A stretch of DNA of 64,000 nucleotides from a virus: the IMG/VR virus record IMGVR_UViG_3300032299_001001, positions 1-64,000 of that record. One strand, 5' to 3'. Positions 24,786 through 43,255 of the stretch are shown one piece after another. Within the stretch, counting starts at the first letter, position 1, and every line of letters begins with the position of its first letter. The translations under genes were made by a program, and so were the position numbers. The notes below the pieces were generated by a model, which saw only the letters and a list, made by a program, of their open reading frames with translations, searched no databases and was not told the origin of the DNA.

Positions 24786-24802
24786 TTTCATCGGGGTAGT
24801 CT

Positions 24803-24874
24803 GCTCTCGTCGTCTAACGGTTAGGACACAGCCCTCTCAAGGCTGCGATACGGGTTCGATTCCCGTCGGGAGTG
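24803..24874 (+). tRNA. tRNA-Glu (anticodon CTC)
   Basis: A full cloverleaf can be folded. The acceptor GCTCTCG pairs with CGGGAGT (two G-T wobbles), and a D arm sits at 24812-24827. The anticodon stem CAGCC/GGCTG has loop CTCTCAA and anticodon CTC at 24836-24838. The T arm is ACGGG-TTCGATT-CCCGT, with discriminator G; CCA is not encoded. It reads GAG glutamate codons, which are frequent in this phage. The 3' half overlaps the end of the minus-strand gene at 24837, placing it exactly where the two arms converge. Confidence 0.85.
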
Positions 24875-25457
24875 GTTTCTCATTGAGCCAGCACCAGGAT
24901 GGGAAGGTGTAGCCTTGGCTGACCTCTTGAGCGACATCCTGCGGCAACCAGATTTTCGCTTTGATCGCGCAGCCACAGACCCCGCATTGGTTGAGCCGTG
25001 AAGCATAAGCCGTGGTCCGTGCACCGATCAGGTTGAAGAGCCATTCGGCCAACCCCTTGCACCGCCAGCACCCCTTGACCATTGTGTTCAGGGGACATGA
25101 GGCACAGAGCGCGGCCCGGCGTTCGGCTTCGGGTTGATCAACAAGTCCCCTGCCCCTAAGTGCGGAGACCGCGGCTTGGATGAAACGCTTAACGTCCTCC
25201 ATCGTGAAGTGGGTCTTGAGTGCGTAGTCACCCTCGATGACGTGGCTGCAACTCTCACTGCCGATCGGAAGCTGGGCACAGACAAAGTCTTGGATGTCGG
25301 CCGAAGGATCACCCGCCGCAAGACTATTGGACTTACGATGGGTCGCCACCTTCTTGACCAGTTCGCGCAAGGTCGAAGCGGCAAACTCGAAGCCCGTCTC
25401 CGGTTGAACATAACGCCAACCGCCGGGCGGGGTCACTCTGGTATCGGTTACTATCAT
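24837..25457 (-). CDS. Cysteine-rich zinc-binding-like protein
   Basis: 206 residues. The C-terminal half has RRAALCASCPLN, KGCWRCKGLAEW and NQCGVCGCAIKAK, three paired-cysteine units that probably bind zinc. The N-terminal half has a GWRYVQPETGFEF strand motif and FAASTLRELVKKVATHR, seen in small phage proteins. The end (LPTGIEPVSQP) is coded by the antisense of the tRNA. Start overlaps the stop of the giant gene (ATGA), so it is the last gene of the virion operon. Confidence 0.65.
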   Translation of the reverse strand: MIVTDTRVTPPGGWRYVQPETGFEFAASTLRELVKKVATHRKSNSLAAGDPSADIQDFVCAQLPIGSESCSHVIEGDYALKTHFTMEDVKRFIQAAVSALRGRGLVDQPEAERRAALCASCPLNTMVKGCWRCKGLAEWLFNLIGARTTAYASRLNQCGVCGCAIKAKIWLPQDVAQEVSQGYTFPSWCWLNEKPLPTGIEPVSQP

Positions 25458-28400
25458 CGATCGGCAAGGATTTCGCGGGGCACGGCCGAGCGGCGGGCTT
25501 GGTTGTAGGCGGAGACGCGGTCGTTTTTACCGCGGGACCGAACCAAGTCTATGCTCTGCTTGCTCGCGTCGTAGGGTTTGTATATTCCGGTGGTCACCAT
25601 TTTGATGGTGTCGCCGCCGAGACCTCCGTCACGGAGGATCGCTTTGGCCCGCTGCACAGACACCCCGAGACGGATCGCGGCGAGGTAGTCCCTGCGAATT
25701 GAGTCGATCAGGCTGCGCCGGGCGGCGTTGGACCGAGCATAGCCGTCGATCACGTCGCCGGCCGAGCGGGTGCCTTGGGCGGTGAACTCGCGGTTGAAGA
25801 GGGCCGAGGCATCGCGCATCTCGCGCATGAAGCGGGAAGATTTGAACTGGAGTGCCTGCTGCGCGTCGACCGAGGAGACACGCTGGCCGAGTGCGACACT
25901 GGAAAGCTCGTTGATGAGGTTGTAGGAACGTCCGGTCTCGCTCTCGATACCGAAGGCGGCTTTACCGATACGCTCGGCGCTGTTCACGGTGCCGGGGACG
26001 AAAGGATCGTAGAAGATCTTGCGGGCTACATTGAGACCGATGTTCGCTCCGGTGTCCTGCGGGTTGTAGACCTGACGGCCGGCCGCATCACGGTTCCGCA
26101 TCACGTCCATGATCGCTCCGGCGAAGATTTGCTCGCTGGTAAAGGGATCAATGGCTTGGCGCACCATGTCCATCGTGCCCTTGAGTAAGATCTCGTCTGC
26201 ACTGCCGGGACTGCGTATTGAACGCATGAATGCGGTCAAAGGCTTTTTGAAATACTCGTAGGGGTCCAAGAAGCTGACATCGAGAAAGTCGATCTCGCCG
26301 TTTGCTTTGCGGAAGAGGACAAGCTGACTGTTCTTCTGCCAGTCGGGCAGGAAGCGGCGGAGGTCTTCTTCGTCTTCTCCGGAAATGCCCGCCATCGCCA
26401 TAGCGGCGGAGCCGACGGCAAACGGGAGGAAGGCGGCAATAGTCATGCCGCGGACCCGCTTCCAGCCGATTGCTTCGAGTTCTTTGTTGCCCGTGGCTCG
26501 GCCTTCTGTGATCTCCTGGCGGGCCAGCTTTTGCAGATTGTAAGTGGTGCGGATGACTTCGCTCGTGAAGGTCACGAACGGGGCAACGAAGGGGAACTTC
26601 TTGAGATCCTGCACAATGGCCGGGGCCAGTGAGTAGGTCCAGTGGATGTCCCGGGCGATGACTGCGGCTTTCTCCTTGATCTTGTTGTCGTCCCAGTCAG
26701 GAAAGGCTCTCCGGTATTTATCCTGCTCGGCCTCGTAGATCATCACTTTGAACCAGTCGTCACCGGCCGAGTAGGTCTTGACCGCGAAGTCGGCCACCCG
26801 CTTGAAGGGATCTCCGACTTTATTCCAAACGAAGTCCCCGAAGTCAGGGCTCCCGGCGCGGCGGCTGGCCGTGAGGAGATCTTCAAGGAGTCCGGTGGTG
26901 ATCGACTCGCCGACGATACCGCGGCGGATATAGTCGTCGATTTTCACCCGCCACTCGGCGCGGCTCATGTTGCGATATTTCCCGAAGGTGCTGGCCAGCA
27001 CAGTGTCGGTAGAGTTGGCGAACCGTCGCTTAAAGTCGCCGCTGGTAATATCGTCCAACCCCAAGTTCCCGCCTGCGATTAGTGGCATGTAGTTACCGAA
27101 GAAGTTCCGGACCTGGGACGCCACCGATCCGACCGTCTTGGTCGCCATCGAGATGCCGGTCAGCTTCATCAAAGCACGCAGCCAAGCGTAGTGCTCCTCG
27201 GTCGAGCCAACCGGGAACATCTTGAAGAGCCCCTCGGCCAGATCCGGATGCACATACATCCCACCAAGAGGTCTCAGTGAAGGATTCTTCTCGGTTGAAA
27301 TACGGACGTAGCCGGGCGGGTGACGGGTATCGTCGGGGTTGTTCTCACGACTCCAAAGCCAGCCCTCTTGGATACCGAGGTCCCGCAGTTCCTTGAGGAA
27401 GTTATCGTTGGCGATGACGCTGGAGAGCTTCATTACCGTCTTGGCATAGTTGACGCTCGGATCTTCGTAGCGACCCCAAAGGGCTTGGATCTCCGGCGCG
27501 ATGTTGCCGCGCTGGTTGAACATGCTGAGATTCTTCTGCCCGGGGATGCGGCCGGAGAGCACCTCGATCGTCGGGGCCTCTGCGCCGATCGCGAGATAGC
27601 CTTCGAGGAGGTTCTCGACCTCGTCGTCGATCACTGAATCGTTGGCGAGTGCTTCGGCGTCGATACGGGAAAGTGTGCGGCCTTCGTCGGCAGCATCAGC
27701 GATCAGGTCTTGGGCTTTCGCTTTAGCCAAGCTGTTGCGGATATACTTACGGGCCGCGTCCATGACCTTGGCATCTTTTCGCACACGGTCAGTCCACTGC
27801 GGATCATCGAAGATCGCATAGCTACGGTTAAGGTAGGTGCCGAGCGCCTCATCAACTGTGATCGCCAAGTCGCCATTGACCAAACCCTCGTTAGGCAACT
27901 GCCGTGAAAGCGACTCGATGTGTGAGGACATCTCGCGGATCGTCGCAGCCAGTTCTTCCGGCAACTGGGCCAGGGCTTGCGTCTGTTTGTTCTGCTTAAA
28001 GTTGCGGCGGTTGTCGCGGATGTATTGGTCGCGCTTCTTGGCGGCTTGATTGGTCAACCCGCGAGCCCGCAAATCTTCAATTTCGCCGATCTGCTGCTCG
28101 GTGAGCGGGTTGTCCAAGTTACCGAGCGCCGTGTTGATCGTCTCCAGGGGCGGTGTCTCACCTTTGTAGAAATTTTTAATCTGCCGCTCCAACACCCGGG
28201 AGAGGTCTTGGATCTTCGACACATCGACTTTGATCGCCATCCGGCTTGAGCGGTAGAGATCGCCGGCCCGCTTATCGAGAAGCTCGTCGACGGCAAACAT
28301 ACCACCGCGGCTGATTGTGCCTCCCGTCGGCGTGCGGCGGGTCACCGGACGCCAGACTCGCCCGCGGGCTCGGGATTCGTTCGGTTGGTCCACCGCGCCA

Positions 28401-31400
28401 CTAGCTGCGTTCGACTGTATGGAAATTTGAACGTCGAAGGGGACCACGACTTTCTTTTTCCCGATCTTGACGGTCTTTACGTTTCCTGGAACGACATCCC
28501 AAACACGTTGAACCTCACCATTACGAACGCGCACCCAGGATCCATCGTCCTGTTTCGTGAACTTTAACTCATCGCGGAAGTAGCTGTTGATTTCGGGGAT
28601 CGTTGAATCTCTTCCCTTAATGTAGGGTTGCGAGGTGACGATTCGTGGGAAGGGCTCCCCAAGATCGACAAGTCCCTCAAGGCGAATGTCGATGTTGAAA
28701 AGTTTTTTGTGGGCATTGAGATTCGTGAGGTAGTCAAAAACATTGATCGACTGACCGACCACCCCGCTCCCGGTCACATCCGGATTGGTGTATTTGATGA
28801 CACGGTTGGTCGGCTTGTCCGAGTGGACTTGGTGCTCGGAACCGTCGCCGATCTTCTTACGGCCATTAATGACCGTGTTCTCAAAACTCTCAGGATCAAG
28901 GATGAGCCCTTGCTCTTCGAGGACGTTGATGAGTTCCTCGAACGCAGCCGCGCCTTGGGCACGACGGCGCTGTTCTAATCGTTGATCGGCTTGCCCGCCA
29001 GTGTCGGCACGAAACCGGAAGCTCTCGCCTGCGCCGAGATCTCGGCCTCGGTTGGCGGATTCTTGGAGGCGTAGTAAAGCCCTTCCGATGTTCCCTTCAG
29101 GGCTTCCCGTTCGCGGTCGTCCTCGAAGGTTTCCTTCGGCATCTTGGTAGATGAGATTCGGGCTTTCACCGACGGCGCGGCTTTCGTTGAGGTCTTCATT
29201 TGGTAGAGTCAGTCCTGCTTCGGCTGCGAGTTCGGAAAGCCGGGTAGCTCGAACGCTGTCGGGCCGTCCAGTGTCGCGTCCCGCCAACCGGCTTCTTGCA
29301 ATAGCCGATCCCACTGTTCGAGCGTAAGCGGCTCGCCCGGCTTCACGGGAATCTTCGTTGCCGAGGAAGTTGCCGGTTCCTTTGTAATATTTTGTTTCAT
29401 AGTTATTACTTGAGACTAACTCTCTGACGGGCAAAAAGAGCGAGCCGTTCTTATCAAAAATTAAGACACGAGTCCCTCCGTTTTGTTCAATCAAAGTCCG
29501 GAATTGGATCCCGGCTGTCTCTAAAATACCACGGGATTGGTCTGCCGTCTGATTTGGGATAAAGACATCATAAAGTCTAGAAGTGCCTTCTGAGTCTCTC
29601 AGGAATGGAATTACTTGCTTCTGGTTTCTCAGTGCCCCCTTGAGCGCGGCCATTACCTCTACGTCCTCATACGTCAGTCCCGGAGCATAGTGCTCGGTTA
29701 CCGTCGTGGGCTCCGCGCCGTCTGCCCAATCTCCGATAGCGTCACTGACTCGGCTTTGATCTAGCCCGAAAACCGTATGAATCCTACTGGCAAACGCCCT
29801 GAGTTGCTCTTGCTGCGTTCCAGTCAACGCCGCCCGGGCCTGTGCAAATGTCAGATTCTCCCGTTCATTAGGGGAGACAAACTCCATCGCCACCGCCCGA
29901 CTCTCCGTCACAGTGTCCGCAGCCAAGGCACCCCGCCAATCCATGAACTCCTCGGGGAGAAGGGCCACCTTCTGCGTGGCAAAAGGACGCTCGGAAGCAG
30001 GAACCTTGATCCGTGTTCCGTCAGCCGCGTAGTTGTGAGCCCCATAATTGACCCAGGAATTCTGCCCCCGGGTCTCGGTGGTCAGCGCCCTCTGGGCCAG
30101 CGGGGTGAACATCTGGCTGTGCTTGATCCAGGCGTTCTCCTCGCCGCGGGCTCCGAACTGGTAGTCCTCGGCTGCGTGACCGAAGAGATCGTGGATCGCA
30201 CGCAGCTTGTCATTCATCGTCAGCCCGTCGGCATCGGGCTGGTTGAGGAGCGGGTGCGGTTCACCGCCCGTGAAAAACCACAAGTGTTTGTTATCCCGGA
30301 CATCGCGCACCATCTCCCGGGAATTGGCGTAGGGTTGCCCCTCGGTTGTCCACGGCTCGAAGGTGACTCCCATCGTATTGATGGCATAGTCCCACTGCTG
30401 CTGGATCTCGAAGCCCAGTTGCCGGTAGGCGTCCTGGGTCTCCCGACCTTCATCGAGGACCGGGAGTGCGTCATAAGCCGCAGCGATGCTGCGAGCCCGT
30501 TGTTCGTCGACTGGGGCGTAGTGCCCGCGGACTACTTCGCCGAGCCCGTAACGGGCATTGTAGGCACTGACTCCTTCTTGGACGAAGGGGTTTGGCTCGG
30601 CGTTGGGCCGAACTGTTTGCCTTTGAACTTGGTCGCCTCCACTTGCGGATCCCATCCCTGGGGTGGTCGCTTGTAGGGCAGGTTGGTTTCTTCTGTCATT
30701 GGTTGCTCCTTGGTTAGACAAAGCCTCGCGGCTTTCGTTAGAAATTGCTCTCGATTCTTGGGGGGTCTGGATGGTGACCGGCTCTACAAAATCCCGAAGA
30801 TCAGGGATTTCCCACCACCTGACTTGCCGCTGCGGGATAAAGGCGGCGTCCCGCATCTGCGGTGTCAGATCACCCGCCCGCATCCCCGTGGGGAAGATGT
30901 GCACTGGAACCGGGACGGTTCCGTAAACTTCCCGCACGGCATCGATTCTGGACCGACCTTCATGGTCTTTAATTTTCCAGACACCAGCCGTGTCATCCCA
31001 AGTTGCACTGAGGAACGGAGGACCGAGCTTCTCGCCGCGGCTGAGTGCGCCAACAACAAAATCTTTAGTCTCGGTATCGGAAACACCGCCAGGAACGAGA
31101 CGGCGGAACTCGTCCGGTGTCATGTATTTCACGAACCCGAAGTAATTGATGTCAATTTGGTTCGGAACCTGACCGATCCCTTCACGCGAATCAAAAATGT
31201 TTTCGATAGGTGAAGGACTAACCGCCCGACTCATCGTCACCGGATCAGCCAGCGTATCGACATCGGCGTCCGCTTCCTCGACCGTCGCCTCTGCACCCCG
31301 TTCCATGTTCCGTGCAGCCATGAACTCTTGCAGCAAGGCTTCACGTTCCGCGGTCGTGCCGGTCAATCCCCGGGCGATGATCTGGTCTTCAATAAAATTG

Positions 31401-34400
31401 GTTGCTTGGTCGAGGGCGGCGAGATCCTGGGCCAAGGGGTTCGCTCCGATCGGAGGTTTGGCATAGCCCTCGGTCGTGCCTTCGAGAGCACCGAAGGTCG
31501 CGGCCCACGCATCTTGGAAAGCGTTGGCCAGCGGGCTCGTCTCCGCGGTCTTCTTGCCAGAGTTGAGATCGACGATGTCGCCCCAAGCCTCGGCCACGGG
31601 TCCGGACAGCGAGGTCTTCTTGCCTTTGGTCTTGGCTTTACCGAGCCCGAGTTGCAGGGCGAGCTTGAGAAATTCCGGACTCTCCATGAGACCGCGTGCG
31701 GTCTCCTCGGCATTGACCAGATAGGCAAAGCGGCGATCGGCATCGGCTCCGACCACGTTCGGGTTGGAGAGGTCATCGACCTGACGGCTCAACTGCGCCA
31801 GTGTTGTGGGGTTATTACCCGCGGGGACTTCGAGACCGTTGGTCCGGGCGACAGCCTTGAGCATTCGCACACGGAAGGCTTCGATTCCTTTGATCGCGGC
31901 CTTCTCGACGGTGTTGAGTTTTTCCAGTCTGGCGAACTTTGTTTTGGAGAACACATGGGCGATCTCGTGCAACATGGTCAGCCCGATGTCATCGGCCTCA
32001 TGCCAGTTATCGAGGTTGAGCACGACCGAGTAGCGGCCGACTGGCGAAGTCGCGTTCTCGTCGACTCCGAGCACACCGGCCCAAGAGGTCCGCGTCTGTC
32101 CGGTCACAAGATCGAACGCCCGTGCCCGGGCTTCTTTGCCGGCTTGTTTGCGGGTGCGCCCCGACTCACCGCCGAAAGCATACGTCTCCACGCCACCCGG
32201 AGTGGTCACCTCGAAGACACCCTCACCTTCCTCGCCTTGAACTTCCTGCACCCGAGCCCGCACTTCTTCACCGCGCAAAGGCTGGGTCGCGAAGTTGCGG
32301 CGGAAGATACCGACCTGCATCGCGATGTCATCAATGTTGAGACCGAACCGCTGACCCTGGCTCAAGACGACCTTGGCAATCATCCGCATGAACGCCGGTC
32401 GGTCGCCATCTTGCGCCATGAACTCAAGCGCGGCCTTCGGACCTTCGAAGATCCGGCTACGCACGGCCTCTTGGGCATTGCGGCGGATCGCATCGATCCG
32501 CTCACGGTTGGCCATGTAACTGGAAAATTCCTCTTGGTATCCGGCGACGAGTTCTTCAACTGATCGACCCATCAGGTCGGCCATGTTCGCCTCGGTCGCG
32601 GCGACAACGCGGCGTCCCTTGGTCGCGGCGAGAGCGTCGAGGGTGGTCGAGACTGCTTGGTAGATCTTCTCGACGACTGCCTCAGAGAGGCCGGCGACTA
32701 GACTGCGGTCGCCGATGAAGGAGCCGACGAAGGCTCGCCTCGCGGTGCTGGCGTTCCGTTGGTCAGGAGTTCCTCCCAGGCCAAGTCCTCCACCAGATCC
32801 AGCGGGTCCAGCCGGAACAGTTCCGGTTTGGCCATCATCAGTTCGGCCCACACGGTTACGTCCCCGTTGAGTGCCCGCTCGATTACGTCCTCGCCCACGG
32901 CTTTCTGTAGGCCCTCCGGCAGCGACCGGTTGCGCTCCAGTAGTCCGCCCACGAAGATCGTTAGCATTTGCGGGTTGTCCCGAAAGTATTTCTGAACCTT
33001 GTTGGGTTCCTTGGTTGATTTGGTCATAGGTTTTATTCCCTTGGAGATACTCTAGCAGTTCTTCGACACGTTGCTGGTCGCTTTCGCTCAATTCTTCTCC
33101 GCGGAGATGGTCTTTAAGAAGGTCGTCATCCTCTTCACTCAGGCGAGAACGGCGCTCCCGAGCATCCATCGCGGCATCGCTGGTCCGCTCGGCAAACCTC
33201 TCAGCCGGAGTCTGTTGGGGCCGCGCATCTCCGGTCGTCCCCGCGGCGAGATCGGCTTCTGCCGCCCGCTGGTTACGTCCGGTCCGGACCGCCGATTTCT
33301 TGGCGCTCTGCGCCTTGGTCATCGCCGTCTTGATCGGGCTGAAATCTCCGTAGCTCTGCCAACGCTTCACGATCGGCTCGACCGCGGCCGATGCCTGTGC
33401 TGCGGTTTGCCCCGAGGCCACGAGTTCCTCGGTGATCTGACGCGCTGCTTCCTGCACATCGCGACCGGTATCGGCTCCCGTCTCGTTCTCCTGATTGCTC
33501 TCGAAGATATCGAGCATCCGGCTGTTGAACTTTTTGAAGAGCGCGAGATCGCGCACCGGAGGCACACCCTTCTTATCGCGGCCGGCCACCTGTTCGATGA
33601 TCGAGGCATCGGCTTCGTCGGAAGCCATCGCTTTGGCCTCGGGATCGAGGTCGCTGCGACGATCAATGAACCGTGCAGCCCGTGCCCGTGCATCGCCGAC
33701 AAAGAACTGGTCGGCCTCGTCGAGGCTTTCCAGCTTTGACTGCACCGAACCAACGGTTTTGCCCGCGCTCTCTTTCTGTGTCTGCTTGCCCTTGCGAGCC
33801 CGCTCACTGCGAAGTAAACGCTCGGGTGAGTTGAAATAGATATTGTCAAAACCTCCCGGGCCGGTGTTCTCCCCGTTCACCGAAAAGTCATAGGCGGCAT
33901 CTCCGCGGCGATAGGTGTTGCCGTTGTAGACGACCTTAGTCACGACGTTGGCGGTCTGACCGTTCTTCATCGTGCGCGGCTCCACTTGCACACCTTCGGG
34001 AAGATTCTGAAGCTGGTCATCCGGCACCGGGACATCGAGTCCGAGGTTCATCTGACGCACCGTGGTGAAGAGGTTCTTCATCCACTTGCCGAAGTTTACG
34101 ACTTCTTTGACCCCGGGCTCACCTTCCTTGTCGAAGTAGCGCACCTCGCCCGGCACCTTGTTCGTCTTGCCGGGGTTGGCGTAGAGACCATCGTCGAAGA
34201 ACGCCTCTTGCGGCTGACCTTCTTGGTAAGGTGTCCCAAAGACGCGCTCGGCTTTCGCCTTGGTCGGCTTCGGTCCGAGCACCGAATTAACGGCAACATC
34301 GACCGGTGACTGCTTCGGCGTGGGCTGCTTGAACATCCCGAGCCGGTTGTATTGCTGCGGGGTAAAGACGAGCTTCTCTTGGTTGCCCTCGGCATCCGGC

Positions 34401-36721
34401 TCGGTCACCACGACCACGTTGCCATTCGGACGGCGGGCTTCGAAAGTCGCACCGAACGAAAGCGAGTCATCGGCTTTCTCATCCGAGAGGTAGACCGTCA
34501 CCTTGTCCTTGGGTTGCAGGCTCTCGACAAATTGGCGCGACTGATCCGGAGGACGGTTGACCGTTTGCTGTGCGACTTTGACCTGCTCGACTTTGGTATC
34601 GGCGATCGTCTGCTTGCTCTTCTGAATCTCCGCATCGAGTGCCGTCGCTTCGGCCGGCGCTTTGCTTAAAGTGTCTTCGACCTGAACGAGCTTTTGATAC
34701 AGCGGCTCGGTCAGCGTGCTCTTGGCTTCCGGTGCCAGGTCCCGGCGCTCGATCTCCCCGATCGAACTCTCCAGCGTGGTCCGCGCATCTCGCAGCAAGG
34801 TCACCGCATTGCGGTCCAGTGTCTCAGCGGTCTCCGCTGCTTGGTCCACGATCGAGACTTCAGGGCGGGCCAGTGCCGCCTTGGAAATTTCCTCCGCGCC
34901 CATCGTTGCGAGATCGGGCATCGGTGTCGGTTGTTCGACCGGCGGAGTCTGCACTGCCGGGATCGAAGTAGCAGTTAGACGAGTCAGCGCAGGGGCCGCA
35001 ACGATCTCGACTTCGCTCTCCGCAGGAACTTCGACCTCCGTGCCATCATTGGCCCGCAGCAAAAACCTTGCACCGTCTTGGGCCAGTGACCCCTCGTAGC
35101 CATTGAACCGCACATTGGAACCAACCGCCTGACCAGCCGGCGTCATGTCCGGACCATCATCAAGCACCGATTCCGTGGCCGGGGTGCGCGGTTTAGGTTT
35201 CTGGACCGGGGTGCGTTTTACCTGCGTCGATCCGACCTCATCGTCATCGAAGAACCCAAGGGCTTTCTGTGCCAGAGCTTTTTCCGATCGGGTCGGGAGA
35301 TTGAGATACTCGACACCATTAAGCAGCGAGAACACTTCACCCTGCGGAGTTGAAAACCTCGGCAACCCAGAAAACTTTTGTGGATCAGGGTTAAAGATCG
35401 CGACCTTGCCTTCGTCATTACGGCGAAAATCAAAACCCCCAACAACCTTCGGCTCCGACCAGTTACTCTCAAGGACTGTGAGTGGTTGGCCCGACGCCGG
35501 ATCCTCCGGGATGTTGACTAGTGTCTGCTGTGTAGTCCGGCGCAACTTCTCCGCCGTCTGCGGAGCCAGTGCTTCGATGACACTGCCAGCGCCACCCAAA
35601 GCACCGCCGACTGTGGCCCCCGCCAGAGCGGCAATCCGCCGCTCCCGTTCCGCTTCCGGCGTTCCGACCACTTCCTCGATCGTCCGGTTCGGATCGGCCG
35701 CACCGAGAGCGGCTTGCTCCAATCCGGTCTGCACATACTCGGTGCCACCTTCCAAGGTTGCCGCAGCAGGAAGACCAACACCAACGCTTCGGGCCACCCG
35801 GCCAGGAAATGAAATCCCTGTGGCTGTATCGACACCCTCTGCTGCCGCCCGTCCCGTCTTCGTGAAAGGCTTGAGAAATTTCCCCGCGATAAAGACCTCA
35901 CCCAAAGTATCGAGTGCAGCCCCAGGAACAGCAAACGCTGCCGCTGCCAAGGCATCCCCTTCACCCGTCTCTTGGGCGATCTGACCGAAGCTCCCGCCCG
36001 CGATCTGGCCAAAGTTGGCGGCATAAGCACCTCCGATAGCTCCTCGGGTAGCTGCTTTATTGATGAGTTCAGCCCCCTCACCGAGAAGCATTCTTTTCGC
36101 GACCATCCCGGCCACTTCTTTTTCCGCGACATCTTTGGCCAACCCCGCAGTCACCCGCTTGCCAATCTCATTGGCCACAATTTTCTTCGCCACCGTCTTC
36201 GCGGCAAAACCACCGACGCCACCACCGACGGCCGAGACAAGTAACTGCGGGATCTGCTCACCAAGTAACCCAGCCGCATAAGTCGCCGCATCCCCCAGCC
36301 CGCCAATCTCCTCGAAGGGATCCTGCACAGTCGCTTGGTTCTGCGCGGCCTCCTCCATCTTACGGACGTAATTATCCAGCCCGAACTCCTCGATTCCCTC
36401 CACCCCGAGCGCCTGCCCCATGAGCCCGACCAACCCGTAGCCGAGACCTTGGGTCTGGTCGACACCGCGATCTAAACCAGTCGAGAACTCTTCGCGGAGG
36501 GTGCGTTCGGGCGCGGGATTCAGGATCGTCCCGCGTAGAGCAACCCTCGAAGCAAACTCCTCTAAGGGAACAACCACGTCTTCCTCTTCACTTGAAGAAG
36601 CACTGGGGGGTGGAGTGGTTCCGGGCGGACGCGCCGAAAGGCGGTAGAAATCTTCTACTGGGATTATTACATCCTCGGAAGTCTCAGTTGCCGCATCATC
36701 CTCAAGGTCATACCAAGCCAT
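25454..36721 (-). CDS. Giant polyvalent protein (3755 aa), probable ejected virion protein
   Basis: A short acidic N-terminus with a repeated EDVIIPVEDF/EDVVVPLEEF motif leads to a glycine-rich hydrophobic region (about 90-390). Then come linkers and a zincin-like protease segment (TMLHEIAHVF near 1580). A ParB-like segment follows (MTPDEFRRLVP, DHEGRSRIDAVR near 1855-1945), then a domain with IHDLFGHAAEDYQFGARGE near 2140, a kinase-like segment (2590-2765) and a long helical C-terminal part resembling LPD38-type regions. This matches the polyvalent-protein concept: large multi-domain proteins delivered with phage DNA. It lies last after other ejection genes. ESRA-type motifs mark several boundaries, and three small genes overlap linker regions. 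Confidence 0.8.
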   Translation of the reverse strand: MAWYDLEDDAATETSEDVIIPVEDFYRLSARPPGTTPPPSASSSEEEDVVVPLEEFASRVALRGTILNPAPERTLREEFSTGLDRGVDQTQGLGYGLVGLMGQALGVEGIEEFGLDNYVRKMEEAAQNQATVQDPFEEIGGLGDAATYAAGLLGEQIPQLLVSAVGGGVGGFAAKTVAKKIVANEIGKRVTAGLAKDVAEKEVAGMVAKRMLLGEGAELINKAATRGAIGGAYAANFGQIAGGSFGQIAQETGEGDALAAAAFAVPGAALDTLGEVFIAGKFLKPFTKTGRAAAEGVDTATGISFPGRVARSVGVGLPAAATLEGGTEYVQTGLEQAALGAADPNRTIEEVVGTPEAERERRIAALAGATVGGALGGAGSVIEALAPQTAEKLRRTTQQTLVNIPEDPASGQPLTVLESNWSEPKVVGGFDFRRNDEGKVAIFNPDPQKFSGLPRFSTPQGEVFSLLNGVEYLNLPTRSEKALAQKALGFFDDDEVGSTQVKRTPVQKPKPRTPATESVLDDGPDMTPAGQAVGSNVRFNGYEGSLAQDGARFLLRANDGTEVEVPAESEVEIVAAPALTRLTATSIPAVQTPPVEQPTPMPDLATMGAEEISKAALARPEVSIVDQAAETAETLDRNAVTLLRDARTTLESSIGEIERRDLAPEAKSTLTEPLYQKLVQVEDTLSKAPAEATALDAEIQKSKQTIADTKVEQVKVAQQTVNRPPDQSRQFVESLQPKDKVTVYLSDEKADDSLSFGATFEARRPNGNVVVVTEPDAEGNQEKLVFTPQQYNRLGMFKQPTPKQSPVDVAVNSVLGPKPTKAKAERVFGTPYQEGQPQEAFFDDGLYANPGKTNKVPGEVRYFDKEGEPGVKEVVNFGKWMKNLFTTVRQMNLGLDVPVPDDQLQNLPEGVQVEPRTMKNGQTANVVTKVVYNGNTYRRGDAAYDFSVNGENTGPGGFDNIYFNSPERLLRSERARKGKQTQKESAGKTVGSVQSKLESLDEADQFFVGDARARAARFIDRRSDLDPEAKAMASDEADASIIEQVAGRDKKGVPPVRDLALFKKFNSRMLDIFESNQENETGADTGRDVQEAARQITEELVASGQTAAQASAAVEPIVKRWQSYGDFSPIKTAMTKAQSAKKSAVRTGRNQRAAEADLAAGTTGDARPQQTPAERFAERTSDAAMDARERRSRLSEEDDDLLKDHLRGEELSESDQQRVEELLEYLQGNKTYDQINQGTQQGSEILSGQPANANDLRGRTTGAQPVAAGGPTESRGRGRNRAGTQRGRNRVGRTDDGQTGTVPAGPAGSGGGLGLGGTPDQRNASTARRAFVGSFIGDRSLVAGLSEAVVEKIYQAVSTTLDALAATKGRRVVAATEANMADLMGRSVEELVAGYQEEFSSYMANRERIDAIRRNAQEAVRSRIFEGPKAALEFMAQDGDRPAFMRMIAKVVLSQGQRFGLNIDDIAMQVGIFRRNFATQPLRGEEVRARVQEVQGEEGEGVFEVTTPGGVETYAFGGESGRTRKQAGKEARARAFDLVTGQTRTSWAGVLGVDENATSPVGRYSVVLNLDNWHEADDIGLTMLHEIAHVFSKTKFARLEKLNTVEKAAIKGIEAFRVRMLKAVARTNGLEVPAGNNPTTLAQLSRQVDDLSNPNVVGADADRRFAYLVNAEETARGLMESPEFLKLALQLGLGKAKTKGKKTSLSGPVAEAWGDIVDLNSGKKTAETSPLANAFQDAWAATFGALEGTTEGYAKPPIGANPLAQDLAALDQATNFIEDQIIARGLTGTTAEREALLQEFMAARNMERGAEATVEEADADVDTLADPVTMSRAVSPSPIENIFDSREGIGQVPNQIDINYFGFVKYMTPDEFRRLVPGGVSDTETKDFVVGALSRGEKLGPPFLSATWDDTAGVWKIKDHEGRSRIDAVREVYGTVPVPVHIFPTGMRAGDLTPQMRDAAFIPQRQVRWWEIPDLRDFVEPVTIQTPQESRAISNESREALSNQGATNDRRNQPALQATTPGMGSASGGDQVQRQTVRPNAEPNPFVQEGVSAYNARYGLGEVVRGHYAPVDEQRARSIAAAYDALPVLDEGRETQDAYRQLGFEIQQQWDYAINTMGVTFEPWTTEGQPYANSREMVRDVRDNKHLWFFTGGEPHPLLNQPDADGLTMNDKLRAIHDLFGHAAEDYQFGARGEENAWIKHSQMFTPLAQRALTTETRGQNSWVNYGAHNYAADGTRIKVPASERPFATQKVALLPEEFMDWRGALAADTVTESRAVAMEFVSPNERENLTFAQARAALTGTQQEQLRAFASRIHTVFGLDQSRVSDAIGDWADGAEPTTVTEHYAPGLTYEDVEVMAALKGALRNQKQVIPFLRDSEGTSRLYDVFIPNQTADQSRGILETAGIQFRTLIEQNGGTRVLIFDKNGSLFLPVRELVSSNNYETKYYKGTGNFLGNEDSREAGRAAYARTVGSAIARSRLAGRDTGRPDSVRATRLSELAAEAGLTLPNEDLNESRAVGESPNLIYQDAEGNLRGRPRTGSPEGNIGRALLRLQESANRGRDLGAGESFRFRADTGGQADQRLEQRRRAQGAAAFEELINVLEEQGLILDPESFENTVINGRKKIGDGSEHQVHSDKPTNRVIKYTNPDVTGSGVVGQSINVFDYLTNLNAHKKLFNIDIRLEGLVDLGEPFPRIVTSQPYIKGRDSTIPEINSYFRDELKFTKQDDGSWVRVRNGEVQRVWDVVPGNVKTVKIGKKKVVVPFDVQISIQSNAASGAVDQPNESRARGRVWRPVTRRTPTGGTISRGGMFAVDELLDKRAGDLYRSSRMAIKVDVSKIQDLSRVLERQIKNFYKGETPPLETINTALGNLDNPLTEQQIGEIEDLRARGLTNQAAKKRDQYIRDNRRNFKQNKQTQALAQLPEELAATIREMSSHIESLSRQLPNEGLVNGDLAITVDEALGTYLNRSYAIFDDPQWTDRVRKDAKVMDAARKYIRNSLAKAKAQDLIADAADEGRTLSRIDAEALANDSVIDDEVENLLEGYLAIGAEAPTIEVLSGRIPGQKNLSMFNQRGNIAPEIQALWGRYEDPSVNYAKTVMKLSSVIANDNFLKELRDLGIQEGWLWSRENNPDDTRHPPGYVRISTEKNPSLRPLGGMYVHPDLAEGLFKMFPVGSTEEHYAWLRALMKLTGISMATKTVGSVASQVRNFFGNYMPLIAGGNLGLDDITSGDFKRRFANSTDTVLASTFGKYRNMSRAEWRVKIDDYIRRGIVGESITTGLLEDLLTASRRAGSPDFGDFVWNKVGDPFKRVADFAVKTYSAGDDWFKVMIYEAEQDKYRRAFPDWDDNKIKEKAAVIARDIHWTYSLAPAIVQDLKKFPFVAPFVTFTSEVIRTTYNLQKLARQEITEGRATGNKELEAIGWKRVRGMTIAAFLPFAVGSAAMAMAGISGEDEEDLRRFLPDWQKNSQLVLFRKANGEIDFLDVSFLDPYEYFKKPLTAFMRSIRSPGSADEILLKGTMDMVRQAIDPFTSEQIFAGAIMDVMRNRDAAGRQVYNPQDTGANIGLNVARKIFYDPFVPGTVNSAERIGKAAFGIESETGRSYNLINELSSVALGQRVSSVDAQQALQFKSSRFMREMRDASALFNREFTAQGTRSAGDVIDGYARSNAARRSLIDSIRRDYLAAIRLGVSVQRAKAILRDGGLGGDTIKMVTTGIYKPYDASKQSIDLVRSRGKNDRVSAYNQARRSAVPREILADR
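28975..29199 (-). CDS. Nested small gene in +1 frame of giant gene (second of pair)
   Basis: 74 residues from ATG 29199, eight bases after the stop of the nested gene before it, in the same frame. Basic N-terminus, then an acidic helix (KETFEDDREREALKGTSEGL) and YYASKNPPTEAEISAQARAS with VPTLAGKPIND. Third codon positions are mostly G or C, as in real genes here, while the giant protein over the same DNA is arginine/glycine/alanine-rich linker. No motif recognised. Real but unproven. Confidence 0.5.
   Translation of the reverse strand: MKTSTKAAPSVKARISSTKMPKETFEDDREREALKGTSEGLYYASKNPPTEAEISAQARASGFVPTLAGKPIND
29209..29400 (-). CDS. Nested small gene in +1 frame of giant gene (first of pair)
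   Basis: 63 residues from an ATG one base after GTAATAAC (29402-29409). The sequence looks like a normal compact protein: KPGEPLTLEQWDRLLQEAGW then DATLDGPTAFELPGFPN. The giant frame here reads a repetitive arginine-alanine linker (residues about 2441-2504). The junction motif, the start position and the codon bias all favour translation. Function unknown. Confidence 0.6.
   Translation of the reverse strand: MKQNITKEPATSSATKIPVKPGEPLTLEQWDRLLQEAGWRDATLDGPTAFELPGFPNSQPKQD
29402..29409 (-). promoter_or_regulatory. GTAATAAC junction motif inside giant gene
   Basis: Exact minus-strand copy, read by the giant frame as Ser-Asn-Asn, immediately followed by T and the ATG of the nested gene. Every other minus-strand copy found stands between two genes. 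Its presence here is independent support for the nested pair. Confidence 0.55.
32698..33027 (-). CDS. Nested 109-aa gene in +1 frame of giant gene
   Basis: 109 residues with ordinary protein composition: NKVQKYFRDNPQMLTIFVGG, LLERNRSLPEGLQKAVGEDV, VWAELMMAKPELFRLDPLDL. It has hydrophobic helices and G/C-ending codons almost throughout, until a serine/proline-rich tail. AAGGGAATAAAACCT precedes the ATG. The giant protein over the same bases (residues 1232-1341) is glutamine-, glycine- and arginine-rich low-complexity sequence, including TESRGRGRN. This strongly suggests that the nested frame is the older or better-conserved one. Function unknown. Confidence 0.65.
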   Translation of the reverse strand: MTKSTKEPNKVQKYFRDNPQMLTIFVGGLLERNRSLPEGLQKAVGEDVIERALNGDVTVWAELMMAKPELFRLDPLDLVEDLAWEELLTNGTPAPRGEPSSAPSSATAV

Positions 36722-36760: not shown

Positions 36761-38242
36761 TCACTTGGAGTCTTCGTCTTCTTCCTCGGATCCGGTCAAC
36801 TCATTAGTGAAATCCCTCAACCAGCGTGCAGGAACACCTACGCCGGGGATGGCAGTCACGTCGCCGCTCGCCACGCTTTTTGCACCTTGATATAGAGTGT
36901 TGGCTGCAAATTCGTTGGCTTTTCGCAAGCCCTCGACAGATCCGCGCACAGCGTCTTTAGCCAGCCGAGCCACCCCGCGACCGCTCGCATCGTATCCCCG
37001 ACCTGCGAGTCCCAGCGCCAAGCCGCCACCTTCAGCGTCACCTTTTCTAAGCAACTCATACTTAAAAGTCTCTGCCGGCATTAGCTCACCGCTTTGTGAC
37101 ACCACAAGTAATCCGGGCGACTTCTCGGCTCGGGCCGCTACGTCACGATTGATTGCTGAGATGTTGACTCCTTTTTCACTGGTGTGCTCAAGTTCCAAGT
37201 CACGAATGTTCACAACTTTACCCTCTACACTCGGGGTGCGAGCGAGCACTGCTCGCAGACCAACTAGCGTCTCGTTATTTTTGGCGAGCCTCTCCTCGAT
37301 CGCGTCCCCGTCGTAGACTGTCCCGTCCGGAGCAGTATATCTTCCGGCTTTTTTAGCAGCTTGGAGTAGATTGTTTTCATCCAGAAGTCCGAGCGCATTG
37401 TTGAGTTCATTTTTTGGCTGTGCTATGCCGGCTTGCTCCAGCACTGCCTGCGCCTCTTCAGGTCTGCCTAACTCTATCAATCGTTGGGCAACGGTAGTTG
37501 CTTTGTCGGCCATAGCTAAGTCTACAGTGGGGGTTTTCGAGGAAACGTCTTGCCCGACTTTCCAGTCAGTAGTCTGAACCCGACGGTTTTCCTCCGCCGC
37601 TTTGCGGGCTACACTCTCGGCTTCCGATAACGTCAGGCCAAAGACCGGCGCATAGTTGTTGGCGAAGCCGTTGTTCCAATCATCGATAAGTTGTTTGCGG
37701 TCGGCCGACTTCATCGCACCACTGACGCGGCGGCTAAAGTCCAGATAGTCTTGGGAGAAGCCGCGCCACACTTGGTTGACTAAATCATCGGGCAGACCTT
37801 GAGGCTGTTCAGCGGTAGTAGCTTGGGTTCCCCCAGAGGCTTGCCTTTGCGCGATCTCCATCTCCCGAGCTTGCTCTTGGCGGAGCCCACCGGAATCCGG
37901 GAGATCGTCAAACACCGTCCGATTGGCCGGAGTCAAAAGATCAAAACTCCCGCCGTAAGATTCCGCCACGGGGGTTCTTAGATCAGCCTCTTGTGCCCGG
38001 CTGAGATCCACCGTCGCTCCCGCAGGGGCGGCAGGATTATTCGACAGAGAAGCAAACATTTCTTGGGCTTGCCGTGTTTGGGCATCGGGATCGTTCACCG
38101 CTTGAGCGTTGGGGGTGAACGCTTCGGCTGGTTGGGTCCGCATCTGTCTCCAACGAGAACGAGCCTCGTCGTAGATGTCACTGACATCATCGCCCTGCTT
38201 ACGCCCATACTCTTGGGCTACGAATTGTTCGAAAGGTGTCAT
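36761..38242 (-). CDS. Probable internal virion (ejection) protein
   Basis: 493 residues, mostly helical and alanine/glutamate-rich, with WRGFSQDYLDFSRRVSGAMK, DDWNNGFANNYAPVFGLTLS and many coiled stretches; it ends in an acidic EEDEDSK tail. No enzyme motif. It lies between two other helical proteins and the giant protein in one operon, the place of DNA-ejection proteins in podoviruses. Its start overlaps the upstream stop (ATGA) with GGAG before it. GTAATAAC follows it at 36744. Confidence 0.65.
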   Translation of the reverse strand: MTPFEQFVAQEYGRKQGDDVSDIYDEARSRWRQMRTQPAEAFTPNAQAVNDPDAQTRQAQEMFASLSNNPAAPAGATVDLSRAQEADLRTPVAESYGGSFDLLTPANRTVFDDLPDSGGLRQEQAREMEIAQRQASGGTQATTAEQPQGLPDDLVNQVWRGFSQDYLDFSRRVSGAMKSADRKQLIDDWNNGFANNYAPVFGLTLSEAESVARKAAEENRRVQTTDWKVGQDVSSKTPTVDLAMADKATTVAQRLIELGRPEEAQAVLEQAGIAQPKNELNNALGLLDENNLLQAAKKAGRYTAPDGTVYDGDAIEERLAKNNETLVGLRAVLARTPSVEGKVVNIRDLELEHTSEKGVNISAINRDVAARAEKSPGLLVVSQSGELMPAETFKYELLRKGDAEGGGLALGLAGRGYDASGRGVARLAKDAVRGSVEGLRKANEFAANTLYQGAKSVASGDVTAIPGVGVPARWLRDFTNELTGSEEEDEDSK

Positions 38243-38696: not shown

Positions 38697-40424
38697 TTAT
38701 GCTCCTGTCCCCGCCCCGTAGTCGAAATTATTGAACCCATAGGGGTTACTCGCTTGTCTGTTAACGATACTACTGGCCAGATTCCCAAACACGGTCATCC
38801 CCGAGTTAATCGCTGACCCCACCAAGTTTTGATTGGTCGTTACTTGTGAGGCTTTCCAAGCGTTGTTGTTGGCCCAGTTAGCCATTGTGGCGTCTGCCAT
38901 TGTTGCAGCACCGGCTGTTCTGGCTGCGTTCATCGCGTCAAACACTCCTGTGCGGACGCCTACGGCCGTCCCCAATACCTTGTCGCGAGCGTTGATTCGT
39001 GCAGCCCTGTCTTGATAAATGGCGTTAGCTTTGGTGCCAAAAATACTATTGGCCACATTTGCGTTTGTGCTGGCGATTGAGCGTTCTGTGTTGAGATTCT
39101 CCCCGTAAACGGTCTGCCGACTTTGGAAGTTACGGTCCCAGATGTTAGTCAGCCTATTGCTGTTTCTGGCTGTCCTCTCGGAAATGTTGTCTCGCCGCGC
39201 ATCGAAGCCCAGTCGATTGGTATCAAGTTGTGACTGAAGCACATTGGAGGCGATGCCAAGATCCCCACGCACCCGATCGCCGATCCGGCCCAAGTTACTG
39301 TCGAGAGTCGTTTTGAATGCGCTTTGTCTCTGATCTCGATCGCTGGCTGCGGTATCTATCGACGCACGCATCAGCGAATCTTGACCGGAACGCATTTCAC
39401 CAAACAGACCAAGTGCTTGGGTCCCCAGTCCGGCCACACGAGTGTCGTAGTTGAGTCGACGCTGGTCCTCATACATCTTGGTTCCTTGCTGCATCAGATC
39501 CATCGAAGTCAGTCCCAGGTCACGGGCAGTCAACCCGCGTCCCATTTGACTTGAAGCACCGAAGCCCCCCTGCAAAGCACGCATCGCGCTCGACTTGGCC
39601 ACGTTCGCTTGCACGTCGGCCGAGATCTGACCACTCATCATCGCGGCAGCGTTGTTGTCGACAATGGCGGCAAGCTCTTGGGCGCGTGGGTCAGCTTCGG
39701 CGATAAGCCGTTGATTGGTGTCAAAGATGCTCTTCGTCAACGAATCAAGTGTCGCGGCGGCGTTGTCGGCCGAAATAAAAGATTCAAACTTCCCGAGTGC
39801 TTCGTCGGCTCTCCCCCGAAAAGTATCCCCCAGACTGATACTTTTGGAATCGAAGTCGTTGATTGTCTGGAGAGCCTCTTGGTCTCCTTTTTGGACTACG
39901 TCGGACGCCCGCGAGTCGAATTCGTCGGTGACCGCTTGGGATCGGACATTGAAGTCGTTGAGTGCTGCGGAAAATTCTTCTCTGTCTTGGGTGTCTAGAA
40001 GTGAAGACGCCTCGTTAAGATCTCGGGTGATCTTATCTAGGTCCTCCTGCAATAAAGCATCTTCTTGTTCTTGGGCTCCTCTAAGAGTGTCGCTATACCC
40101 CTTGATACGGTCCAAAAGTTTTTGCTCTTCGGCATCAAGCTCTTTGGCTCCGCTCGCTACTAGTCCGTCTACGTTGGCTACAAACTCGTCGGTAAGCCGT
40201 GTAATTTCCGGAACTAGCGGTGGCGGTTTGTTTCCTTTCCCATACGCCGCGTTACGGATAGCCCGAACATTATCATCAGCGATACGTTGAAGGTCTGCCA
40301 GAGGCACTTGAGTCGGGGAACTTCCGCCGCCGCCACCACCACCACCAAACAAACCTGCTTGGCCTGCTATCCCCGCCCCAACGCCTAGTGCGCTAACTCC
40401 TACGCCTACTGCTGCCCAAGACAT
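38697..40424 (-). CDS. Probable internal virion protein with glycine-rich membrane-like N-terminus
   Basis: 575 residues. It begins with a small-residue hydrophobic stretch (VGVGVSALGVGAGIAGQAGL) followed by a run of glycines, like the membrane-active start of phage internal proteins. The rest is a long helical rod with many Asn/Arg/Asp-rich repeats (LDTNRLGFDARRDNISERTA). Such proteins form the ejectosome core or the inner tail. It overlaps the cupin gene's end by 19 bases. Confidence 0.65.
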   Translation of the reverse strand: MSWAAVGVGVSALGVGAGIAGQAGLFGGGGGGGGSSPTQVPLADLQRIADDNVRAIRNAAYGKGNKPPPLVPEITRLTDEFVANVDGLVASGAKELDAEEQKLLDRIKGYSDTLRGAQEQEDALLQEDLDKITRDLNEASSLLDTQDREEFSAALNDFNVRSQAVTDEFDSRASDVVQKGDQEALQTINDFDSKSISLGDTFRGRADEALGKFESFISADNAAATLDSLTKSIFDTNQRLIAEADPRAQELAAIVDNNAAAMMSGQISADVQANVAKSSAMRALQGGFGASSQMGRGLTARDLGLTSMDLMQQGTKMYEDQRRLNYDTRVAGLGTQALGLFGEMRSGQDSLMRASIDTAASDRDQRQSAFKTTLDSNLGRIGDRVRGDLGIASNVLQSQLDTNRLGFDARRDNISERTARNSNRLTNIWDRNFQSRQTVYGENLNTERSIASTNANVANSIFGTKANAIYQDRAARINARDKVLGTAVGVRTGVFDAMNAARTAGAATMADATMANWANNNAWKASQVTTNQNLVGSAINSGMTVFGNLASSIVNRQASNPYGFNNFDYGAGTGA

Positions 40425-40912: not shown

Positions 40913-43255
40913 TCACCTAAATTGAAGAACGCGACGGGTGTGGGCGGCTCCGCGGTTTCCGGTAAAGTTTTGTTGGGCGATCTGGCTGGCCAGCATCTCC
41001 TTGGCCTTCTCGATATGGGGGGTGATTTGCTCGCCGCCCAGGAGAATCCCCTTGGTCGCCTCGTAGATCGCTTGGTAGTTGCGAAGATACATTTTCTCCG
41101 CATCCGTGGTATGGGGAATAAAGCGGCGTTTGGCCAAGATCCGGACCACCGGAACCACGTTGGGTAGCGTAATCCAATATTTCCGCTTGAGGAAACCGTC
41201 GGACGGATCAATCCCCTCGCCGCGGTCGACCGCGCCTTCACGCCACTTGTCGTCCGTCTCACGGTATCCGGTGCCACCGCGAATCCACTCGTTGAGCCGA
41301 TCGTGCACGGGCTTGGGATCGCCGTCGAAAGACATGTAGAGAATCGTCTCAACCTCACGAGGCAGGAAGAACTCGCCCGTGGCATTCACTGAAAGAGTAT
41401 ACTCGGCCACGGTGCCGACCCACTTGCCGGCGAACATCAGTTGCTCCTCGGCCGCGTTGACCATGCGCTTCACGGCGGAGTTCGAGAGTCGGTAAGCCTC
41501 GGGCAGTTCCAGCCCGATCCGGCCCCAGTGGTAGCCGAAGCTGTCATTAGCCGAAGCGAGCAACGCTTCACGGGTCGAGCGACGGGCGGCTTCGATCGCA
41601 GTCATCACATCGCGTTCGACCGCAGCTAGGGCTTGCTGCTTGAGCGCGGTCGCCACTTCCGGCTGTCCGGCCGAGGTCGCCAGATAGCTTTCGACCAGGA
41701 TCTTCCGCTGCTCGTAGGTCGGTGTCGGTGCGGTGCCGTTGTAGTCTTCGCGGCGTTGGAGGAAATCTTGCTGCGCCCCGATCTCGGTCGAAGCCTGGGA
41801 CAAATAGGTGGTCAACCGTGCCGTCGGGATCGTGACCCCGTTGGGTAGTTCATTGTGCAGCTTGCCCTCGTCGCCGGCCGCAGCCCGACGGGCCGCTTCG
41901 ACTTGGGCCATCAAGTCACGCTCGATCAACGCTTGGCCTTCGGCTTTGAGCGCCGACGCGGCTTCGATTTGACCAGCCCCGGACGCGACATAGCTTTCCA
42001 CGAATTTTTTCCGCACTTCATAGGTAAAAGGATTTGGTTTGGTTCCGCTCGAATAGTTCTCACGGCGGGCCAAGAAGTCCCAGTGAGCGCCAGCCTCGGC
42101 GGCAGCTTGGCTCAGATACTCGTTGATTCTAGCTGTGGCGATCCGCACACCCTCGGGGAGTTCGTTGTGTAGACGCCCCGCCTCTCCGGCCGTAGCACGG
42201 CGTGCGGCTTCGACATTCTGCATCAAGTCACGCTCAATAATGGAGAACGCTTCCTGCTTTTTGGCGTTGGCTACATCAACCGTGCCGCCCAAAGTGGCGA
42301 TATAGGATTCGACCAAAGGCTTGAGCACCTCGTAAGCGAACGGATTGGGCTTCGCTCCACTGGAGTAATCCTCACGGCGGGCCAGAAAGTCGTAGTGCGT
42401 TCCCGCCTCGGTCGCTGCCTGGGAGAGATACGTGGTCAGGCGTGCCGTCGGAATTTGCAAACCTCCGGGCAGTTCATTGTGGAGCCGCCCTTCGGTTCCA
42501 GCCGCATCGCGCCGAGTCTGCTCAACCAAGGTCGTCACATTGCGGTCAATCAACTCGAAGGCTTGCGTCTTGAGCCCCGTGCCATCGCCACCTGCATCAG
42601 TAACGATCAACGACAGGGTCAGGAGTCGGACGACTTCTACCGGAAGAAGCGTGTTGAAAATTGCCACATCAGAAGTCAGGGCTGTGTAAGTAAGCGGTGT
42701 CCTCGACTTATCCTCGCGGCGGCTGACAAAGTTGTGCTGGTCGATCGCTTGCTGGTAAGCCTGATTGATGAGGCTCTTGATCCGACCTTCAGGCAAGCGG
42801 TATTGGACGAGGGTCTCAAGGCCGACACGCCCTGTCAGTCCGCCAAAGGTATTCTGCCCGTTATTTGTCGCAAGCGTCTGGAACGTCGAACGGCGAGCCC
42901 GCTCGACCTCGTTCATCAAGTTGCGCTCGATGTAGGAGTTGGCCTTGGTTTCCAACCCCGTTGCCAGTTCAAGTTGGTTATTCTCCTCGCGCCAGAGCGC
43001 CAAGATCATCGACTTGGTCGCATCCAAGTTGTCTAGGATGAGGCTACCCGTAGCGGGGTTACCAGTCGTGCCGCCTGCGTTCCAAGTCAGCAAGGCTTTC
43101 TCCATCTCCTCGCGGCGGGAGAGGAAGTTGTAGTGGTCGATCAGCCTACGCTGGGCCTCGTCAATCCTCTGGTCGATACGCGCCGTGTCGGTCACCGCCA
43201 CGCCATTATCGACGTAGGGTGCAAGCAAGTTACGCGCTTCGAGGTAAGTCGCCAT
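40913..43255 (-). CDS. Tail adaptor-like protein with five ~105-residue repeats
   Basis: 780 residues. About residues 1-580 consist of five tandem units of roughly 105 residues, each containing a helix ending in (H/Q)xDFL(A/S)RRE(D/E), a strand VESY, then ERDLM...VEAARR and a LHNELP turn at most unit ends. The C-terminal 200 residues (RIGLELPEAYRLSNSAVKRM, LPREVETILYMSFDGDPKPV) resemble podovirus tail tubular A/adaptor proteins. The repeated N-terminal part is unusual and may form a collar extension. Start abuts the upstream stop. Confidence 0.65.
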   Translation of the reverse strand: MATYLEARNLLAPYVDNGVAVTDTARIDQRIDEAQRRLIDHYNFLSRREEMEKALLTWNAGGTTGNPATGSLILDNLDATKSMILALWREENNQLELATGLETKANSYIERNLMNEVERARRSTFQTLATNNGQNTFGGLTGRVGLETLVQYRLPEGRIKSLINQAYQQAIDQHNFVSRREDKSRTPLTYTALTSDVAIFNTLLPVEVVRLLTLSLIVTDAGGDGTGLKTQAFELIDRNVTTLVEQTRRDAAGTEGRLHNELPGGLQIPTARLTTYLSQAATEAGTHYDFLARREDYSSGAKPNPFAYEVLKPLVESYIATLGGTVDVANAKKQEAFSIIERDLMQNVEAARRATAGEAGRLHNELPEGVRIATARINEYLSQAAAEAGAHWDFLARRENYSSGTKPNPFTYEVRKKFVESYVASGAGQIEAASALKAEGQALIERDLMAQVEAARRAAAGDEGKLHNELPNGVTIPTARLTTYLSQASTEIGAQQDFLQRREDYNGTAPTPTYEQRKILVESYLATSAGQPEVATALKQQALAAVERDVMTAIEAARRSTREALLASANDSFGYHWGRIGLELPEAYRLSNSAVKRMVNAAEEQLMFAGKWVGTVAEYTLSVNATGEFFLPREVETILYMSFDGDPKPVHDRLNEWIRGGTGYRETDDKWREGAVDRGEGIDPSDGFLKRKYWITLPNVVPVVRILAKRRFIPHTTDAEKMYLRNYQAIYEATKGILLGGEQITPHIEKAKEMLASQIAQQNFTGNRGAAHTRRVLQFR

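Follow-up and report, generated by a model that had tools for sequence, protein, structure and literature searches.

A recurrent S-R-A peptide at the cargo boundaries of a giant polyvalent phage protein

We analysed a window of 64,000 nucleotides (positions 1 to 64,000 of the IMG/VR record IMGVR_UViG_3300032299_001001, a virus contig of 66,433 bases), in which a minus-strand open reading frame (ORF) encodes a giant polyvalent protein of 3755 residues. The main new observation is that the tripeptide S-R-A, or S-V-A in one clade of relatives, stands at every boundary of the cargo domains that this protein holds in front of a C-terminal carrier module. We propose, with a probability of about one half, that the giant is a virion-carried, polyprotein-like polyvalent protein whose S-R-A joints are cut, releasing its domains onto host targets. 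To our knowledge, no cleavage sites of polyvalent proteins are known; if the boundary peptides are such sites, the autoproteolysis proposal made for this class in 2017 becomes directly testable. The motif also provides an objective way to divide giant phage proteins into effector cassettes.

Aligned with 10 orthologues, the protein falls into four parts, namely two conserved ends, an allelic core and a bay whose content is replaced (Table 1). The bay (residues 1831-2785, up to about 950 residues) is replaced wholesale between orthologues; it holds here a ParB-like segment, a domain named after its DLFGH motif, a domain X and a degenerate kinase, and in the relatives ART-PolyVal, LPD37, other domains or nothing, being essentially empty in the orthologue L004. 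Above the curated Pfam cut-offs, LPD37 was found in the cargo of L003, L005, L007, L008 and L009, ART-PolyVal in L002 and L007, and Kinase-PolyVal in L002. These families are among those that define polyvalent proteins (PMC5512222), and two or more disparate domains occur in one chain in L002 (ART-PolyVal and Kinase-PolyVal) and in L007 (LPD37 and ART-PolyVal), as is expected of the class; the domain calls of the window protein itself rest on homology and motifs. A preliminary description of this DNA, made from the letters alone, had already called the protein polyvalent, and the presence of these families in the same bay of close orthologues upholds that assignment. Its ORF coordinates were exact, and the HEIAH, ParB-like, DLFGHAAEDY and kinase-like parts that it named were located at residues 1585-1589, about 1884-1960, 2038-2260 and about 2614-2732, respectively. 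The S-R-A boundary motif, the exchange of cassettes and the spread of the DLFGH domain go beyond it.

The cassettes are bounded by the tetrapeptide [E/M/Q/Y/F]-S-R-A. In the 975-residue cargo S-R-A occurs five times against 0.42 expected, a number reached in none of 20,000 shuffles. At the five boundaries marked by a break in homology, the distance to an S-R-A site is 0.5 to 10 residues, which none of 100,000 random placements matched. In six relatives, each of the 8 curated Pfam domain instances has an S-R-A or S-V-A site on either side. The junction with the carrier reads SRARGRVW in 8 of the 10 orthologues and SVARGRVW in L003 and L005, where the site at the far end of LPD37 is S-V-A as well.

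The swap of slot A can be followed at the DNA level, between gene positions 5498 and 5974. This slot holds the ParB-like segment in the window, nothing in L001 and ART-PolyVal in L002, and the DNA on either side of it is 92-97% identical among the three. The joint in L001 reads ...gacgatgAGTCGGGC-Aatttctaac..., with the left S-R-A of the window fused to the right S-R-A within the alanine codon. The orthologue L004, in turn, corresponds to L009 minus the LPD37 that lies between two SRARGRV copies, with a clean join. Both resolved crossovers thus fall within or beside the motif.

The codons of the five S-R-A copies are AGTCGGGCG, TCGAGAGCA, AGTCGGGCG, AGCCGCGCC and TCCCGAGCC, and their mean pairwise base identity is 0.56, compared with 0.64 for random synonymous codons. 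Because the synonymous codons have diverged to this extent, the motif is kept as a peptide and a tag acting at the DNA level only is unlikely; selection on the S-R-A peptide is the simplest reading. Protease sites are a common cause of conserved peptides between domains. All four S-R-A sites in the modelled stretch have a predicted local distance difference test (pLDDT) value below 50, which lends weak support to exposed linkers, since 38% of the model is equally low and its alignment is shallow. We infer that S-R-A is a linker cleavage site.

The C-terminal carrier, with 66-100% identity across most blocks of the orthologue alignment, matches phrog_22602, ‘virion structural protein’, with an E-value of 1e-32. 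Its tblastn matches include Cellulophaga phages phi13:2, phi18:3 and phi19:3, Pelagibacter phage HTVC027P and Pseudoalteromonas phage vB_PunP_Y3; the module is encoded in at least 530 viral contigs and ends at most 100 residues from the C-terminus in 32 of 35 non-redundant ORFs, and short family members of 1000-1500 residues occur. The phi18:3 protein gp123 is annotated as ‘structural protein’ from experimental tandem mass spectrometry (MS/MS) proteomics of the virion. Since the carrier is homologous to this protein, the delivery with the virion suggested in the preliminary description gains indirect support, and we regard such delivery as well supported by homology. Its further suggestion of a place after ejection proteins was not confirmed: the upstream virion-region genes at 36761-38242 and 38697-40424 match no family. 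That of new effector domains in residues 2765-3050 did not hold: the segment belongs to the conserved carrier save for a short stretch before residue 2786. An identity of the carrier with LPD38 was dropped, as PF18857 gave no match to this gene and its relatives at E<=10.

The candidate for the processing enzyme lies in the core, which is kept in all orthologues with about 98% identity in L001 and L002 and 25-35% in the others. Judged from this alignment, residues 396-1830 are alleles of one region and not swapped cargo; segment 390-1580, for which the preliminary description had proposed new effector domains, has no assigned family. The HExxH motif is invariant in 10 of 10 orthologues, with about 35% identity between alleles in the surrounding region, and a conserved Glu (A6 column E194) occurs in a later predicted helix of a low-confidence model, which together give the HExxH and downstream Glu of zincins. 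Among non-redundant carrier proteins, HExxH is present in 15 of 20 that have at least 2000 residues (0.3 expected by shuffling) and in 2 of 15 shorter ones. A role of the embedded HExxH domain as processing enzyme is plausible. The more specific identity of MPTase-PolyVal was abandoned, because its Pfam model (PF18818) matched neither the window record nor four relatives at E<=1. Elsewhere in the core, a variant ESRGRGR at residue 1273 (about 32897-32905, minus strand) lies within a locally diverged stretch with 68-84% identity, compared with 96-100% in its flanks, in L001 and L002; it is possibly a further joint.

In the mechanism that we envisage, the carrier would place the giant in the virion and, by homology, the protein would enter the cell with the DNA. 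The bay, which spans 0 to about 950 residues just before the carrier, holds one to four enzyme-like domains, and related phages exchange these as whole cassettes. S-R-A would most likely be a protease recognition site that frees these domains, the cutter being probably the HExxH domain of the protein's own core, active in the particle or after delivery. As known polyvalent families suggest, the freed kinase, ADP-ribosyltransferase (ART), ParB-like and DLFGH domains may go on to attack host targets as infection begins. A counter-defence role of the giant would be consistent with its context.

Several points weigh against this proposal, beginning with the fact that cleavage itself is read from a sequence pattern. 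S-R-A also occurs inside the LPD37 domain of L003 and L005 and once inside the carrier, at residue 3253. Across distant giants it is not enriched overall, and S-R-A was discarded as a universal motif, although carrier-module giants show a mild enrichment of [FY]S[RK] (84 vs 51). The putative protease has no match above cut-off among the Pfam peptidases, a fold search with the low-confidence core model returned no zincin among its matches, and 5 of the 20 long carrier proteins lack HExxH. Finally, the virion RNA polymerase of phage N4, a polyvalent protein with a metallopeptidase (MPTase) domain, is described as packaged uncleaved (PMC5512222).

The cut could also be made by another protease, from phage head maturation or from the host, with the HExxH domain being itself an effector. 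The prohead protease Pro cuts DarA of phage P1 as well as the major capsid protein (PMC12810830), and MPTases as effectors are allowed for by Iyer et al. (PMC5512222); we nevertheless consider this unlikely, given that S-R-A was not seen at comparable places in other virion-region proteins of this phage, which also led us to reject it as a genome-wide virion processing site, and that we recognised none of the scanned window genes as encoding a prohead protease. A different explanation does without cleavage and takes the S-R-A linkers as flexible hinges or unfolding breakpoints for threading through the portal and tail. The sites do sit in predicted disordered linkers, yet a hinge does not need an exact tripeptide, let alone three residues fixed despite great codon divergence and, in one clade, a joint switch of the two sites from R to V, and we judge this explanation to be quite improbable.

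We are equally reluctant to regard S-R-A as a recombination tag, with short DNA homology at the linkers driving exchange and the peptide having no role. The cassettes swap exactly where the two resolved crossovers lie, as such a tag would predict; however, both codon families of Ser and of Arg occur among the copies, which have only 56% of their bases in common, below random synonyms, and most linker peptides of other giants are likewise codon-diverged. It would be very surprising if the whole protein were an ordinary internal virion or ejection protein with structural cargo: phrog_22602 is indeed a virion structural family with short members, but the cargo slots hold ART-PolyVal and Kinase-PolyVal above curated cut-offs and the cargo is dispensable, as L004 demonstrates. 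Cleavage at S-R-A by the protein's own HExxH domain thus remains the reading that we prefer.

Since S-R-A is not enriched across distant giants, boundary marks appear to be lineage-specific. In 54 non-redundant DLFGH giants, 19 five-residue words recur at least 3 times with a spacing of at least 80 residues, compared with 0.85 in shuffles. Several recurrent words border the DLFGH domain, namely PQFSK (L100), QFAAR (L076), ATQFGA (L038), GLQSAI (L096) and FSVPK (L043), and most recurrent words have varied codons, with the exceptions of ESAR (L033), DLHPR (L055) and SNDIR (L041). We also observed repeated linker peptides of 5-6 residues, ASFSPK included, in the unrelated giants L100, L076, L038, L043, L096 and L066. 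A broader proposal, which we put forward only tentatively and with more doubt than confidence, is that polyvalent giants are polyproteins in which each lineage has its own joint peptide, ESRA in the present case, read by an embedded protease, that the joints are the sites of exchange, and that DLFGH is a new metalloenzyme effector that occurs alone and early in T7-like phages. If the joint peptides are exchange sites, new effectors could be found between the marks.

The DLFGH domain has no Pfam family and matches phrog_3170, of unknown function, over residues 2037-2228 (E 1.2e-23). A scan located 476 viral-contig stretches that encode its relatives, mostly within ORFs of more than 1000 residues. 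Across 63 sequences the two His and the Asp of HDxxGH never vary, nor do several further polar residues, and ETRGQNS is nearly invariant. As a widespread and strongly conserved domain, it deserves attention. Its structure model (pLDDT 94.8) has no significant match among Protein Data Bank (PDB) folds. Foldseek ranks tryptophan and phenylalanine hydroxylases in its first five places, with E-values of 0.5-2, template modelling (TM) scores of about 0.2 and root-mean-square deviations of 17-20; these hydroxylases did not appear in a second search, a PDB profile search gave no hydroxylase, and Biopterin_H is absent from the listed Pfam matches of the 63 members. An aromatic hydroxylase, suggested by the HDLFGH...E motif, is therefore kept as a lead only, the rows being non-significant and the superposition poor. 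HELLGH is the iron site of aromatic amino-acid hydroxylases, and because the motif resembles it, we may reasonably guess at a metal-dependent enzyme, but do no more than guess.

A viral fold search returned solo DLFGH-like proteins of 160-206 residues. Relatives of one of them, LKA1 ORF7, occur in 123 phage records, and genes of this type are the second gene in phi15 and the first in Voja-1. In a profile comparison between solo proteins and DLFGH domains the motifs align, with a probability of 62% and a pairwise E-value of 7e-5. The solo relatives are autographivirus early genes upstream of the RNA polymerase gene (L116:3662-4225, which is LKA1 ORF7; L117:1329-1817; L118:621-1118).

The remaining cassettes are assigned with different degrees of confidence. 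The ParB-like segment has no Pfam match, the ParB superfamily and ddrB-ParB (PF18763) included, and no relatives among viral contigs; it is recognised by its HEGRSR-type motif only. In the window protein domain X comes after the DLFGH domain, but in L037 and L018 it comes first (50% identity). Its residues 2375-2453 are weakly predicted to form a PII/ACT-like alpha/beta subdomain (best Z 7.4); a phage S-adenosylmethionine (SAM) lyase or PII-like protein was rejected, as 6zm9 (Z 6.3) is tied with many unrelated ferredoxin-like folds. The kinase segment has no Pfam match above cut-off, and because it is 73% identical to the L002 segment, which is Kinase-PolyVal (PF18762) above cut-off, the two very probably represent one domain.

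Tail, fibre and endolysin families occur in the minus-strand block of which the giant gene is the final large member; this is the late or virion gene neighbourhood described for polyvalent proteins by Iyer et al. (2017). Orthologues are encoded at 11 or more viral-contig loci, which excludes a chance ORF. The whole protein has no accepted family in Pfam, NCBIfam or PDB sequences and only weak matches in PADLOC, and the region 36-60 kb has no DNA match by megablast among 50,697 phage records. Nearby, an ORF of 206 residues (24837-25457) overlaps the stop of the giant gene by four bases, and its 3’ end is overlapped by a tRNA-Glu (CTC) gene on the opposite strand (24802-24875, plus strand). The 780-residue product of the gene at 40913-43255 (minus strand) looks like a repeat-expanding virion protein, because it has 783 to 1199 residues in relatives and L001 and L002 show many shifted matches inside the gene.

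Table 1. Features of the giant gene, with positions in the window and residues of the encoded protein.
Feature	Position	Strand	Remarks
Giant polyvalent protein ORF	25454..36721	-	3755 aa, stop included, ATG start, uninterrupted
Conserved N-terminal region, residues 1-395	35537..36721	-	mostly 60-100% identity to orthologues past residue 100
Core, residues 396-1830	31232..35536	-	allelic exchange, orthologue alignment
Putative zincin-like metallopeptidase, residues 1480-1800	31322..32284	-	HEIAH at 1585-1589, later-helix Glu; low-confidence model
Boundary motif 1, S1831-R-A (TMSRA)	31223..31231	-	cargo start
Cassette slot A, residues 1834-1989	30755..31222	-	ParB-like with HEGRSR motif
Boundary motif 2, S1990-R-A (QESRA)	30746..30754	-	after ParB-like segment
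DLFGH domain, residues 2038-2260	29942..30610	-	phrog_3170
Boundary motif 3, S2274-R-A (TESRA)	29894..29902	-	between DLFGH domain and domain X
Domain X, residues 2277-2513	29183..29893	-	
Boundary motif 4, S2514-R-A (NESRA)	29174..29182	-	between domain X and kinase
Degenerate polyvalent-type protein kinase, residues about 2614-2732	28526..28882	-	L002 equivalent matches PF18762
Boundary motif 5, S2783-R-A (NESRARGRVW)	28367..28375	-	cargo/carrier junction
Carrier module, residues 2786-3755	25457..28366	-	phrog_22602 family; homologous to phi18:3 gp123

With the polyvalent proteins described in PMC5512222 the giant shares unrelated enzyme-like domains in one chain, a neighbourhood of virion genes, HExxH and, in its close orthologues, the kinase and ART families; it adds a constant C-terminal carrier, an exchangeable bay, a peptide at every junction and the Pfam-less DLFGH domain. 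That paper proposed that polyvalent proteins undergo autoproteolysis and that, in the case of Verrucomicrobium, their cassettes may recombine; the text searched names no repeated boundary motif or cleavage sites. Cellulophaga phage phi18:3 gp123 (AGO48635.1, 1935 residues) shares the C-terminal module, with 24.5% identity over 78%, but is shorter and lacks HExxH, an S-R-A array and recognised cargo. In phage vB_PunP_Y3 (OR779980) an ART-like region accompanies a carrier homologue that has 27% identity over 81% of the module; unlike in the giant, its cargo and carrier are two adjacent genes (L013:960-14331) without a repeated linker motif, the first encoding ddrB-ParB, ART, methyltransferase, LPD1 and LPD5 and the second an ART-like region before the carrier. 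The Y3 paper classed this carrier gene as auxiliary metabolic, as an ADP-ribosyltransferase. The P1 proteins DarA, DarB and DdrB, likened here by their descriptions, are co-injected, with ParB-like and MPTase domains in DdrB, and some are processed proteolytically (PMC5512222, PMC12810830), but they are encoded by separate genes. Polymorphic toxins, finally, share with the giant a constant delivery part and swappable effector cassettes, whereas in the giant the carrier is C-terminal, the cargo is internal, delivery would be by the phage particle and the boundary peptide is repeated several times.
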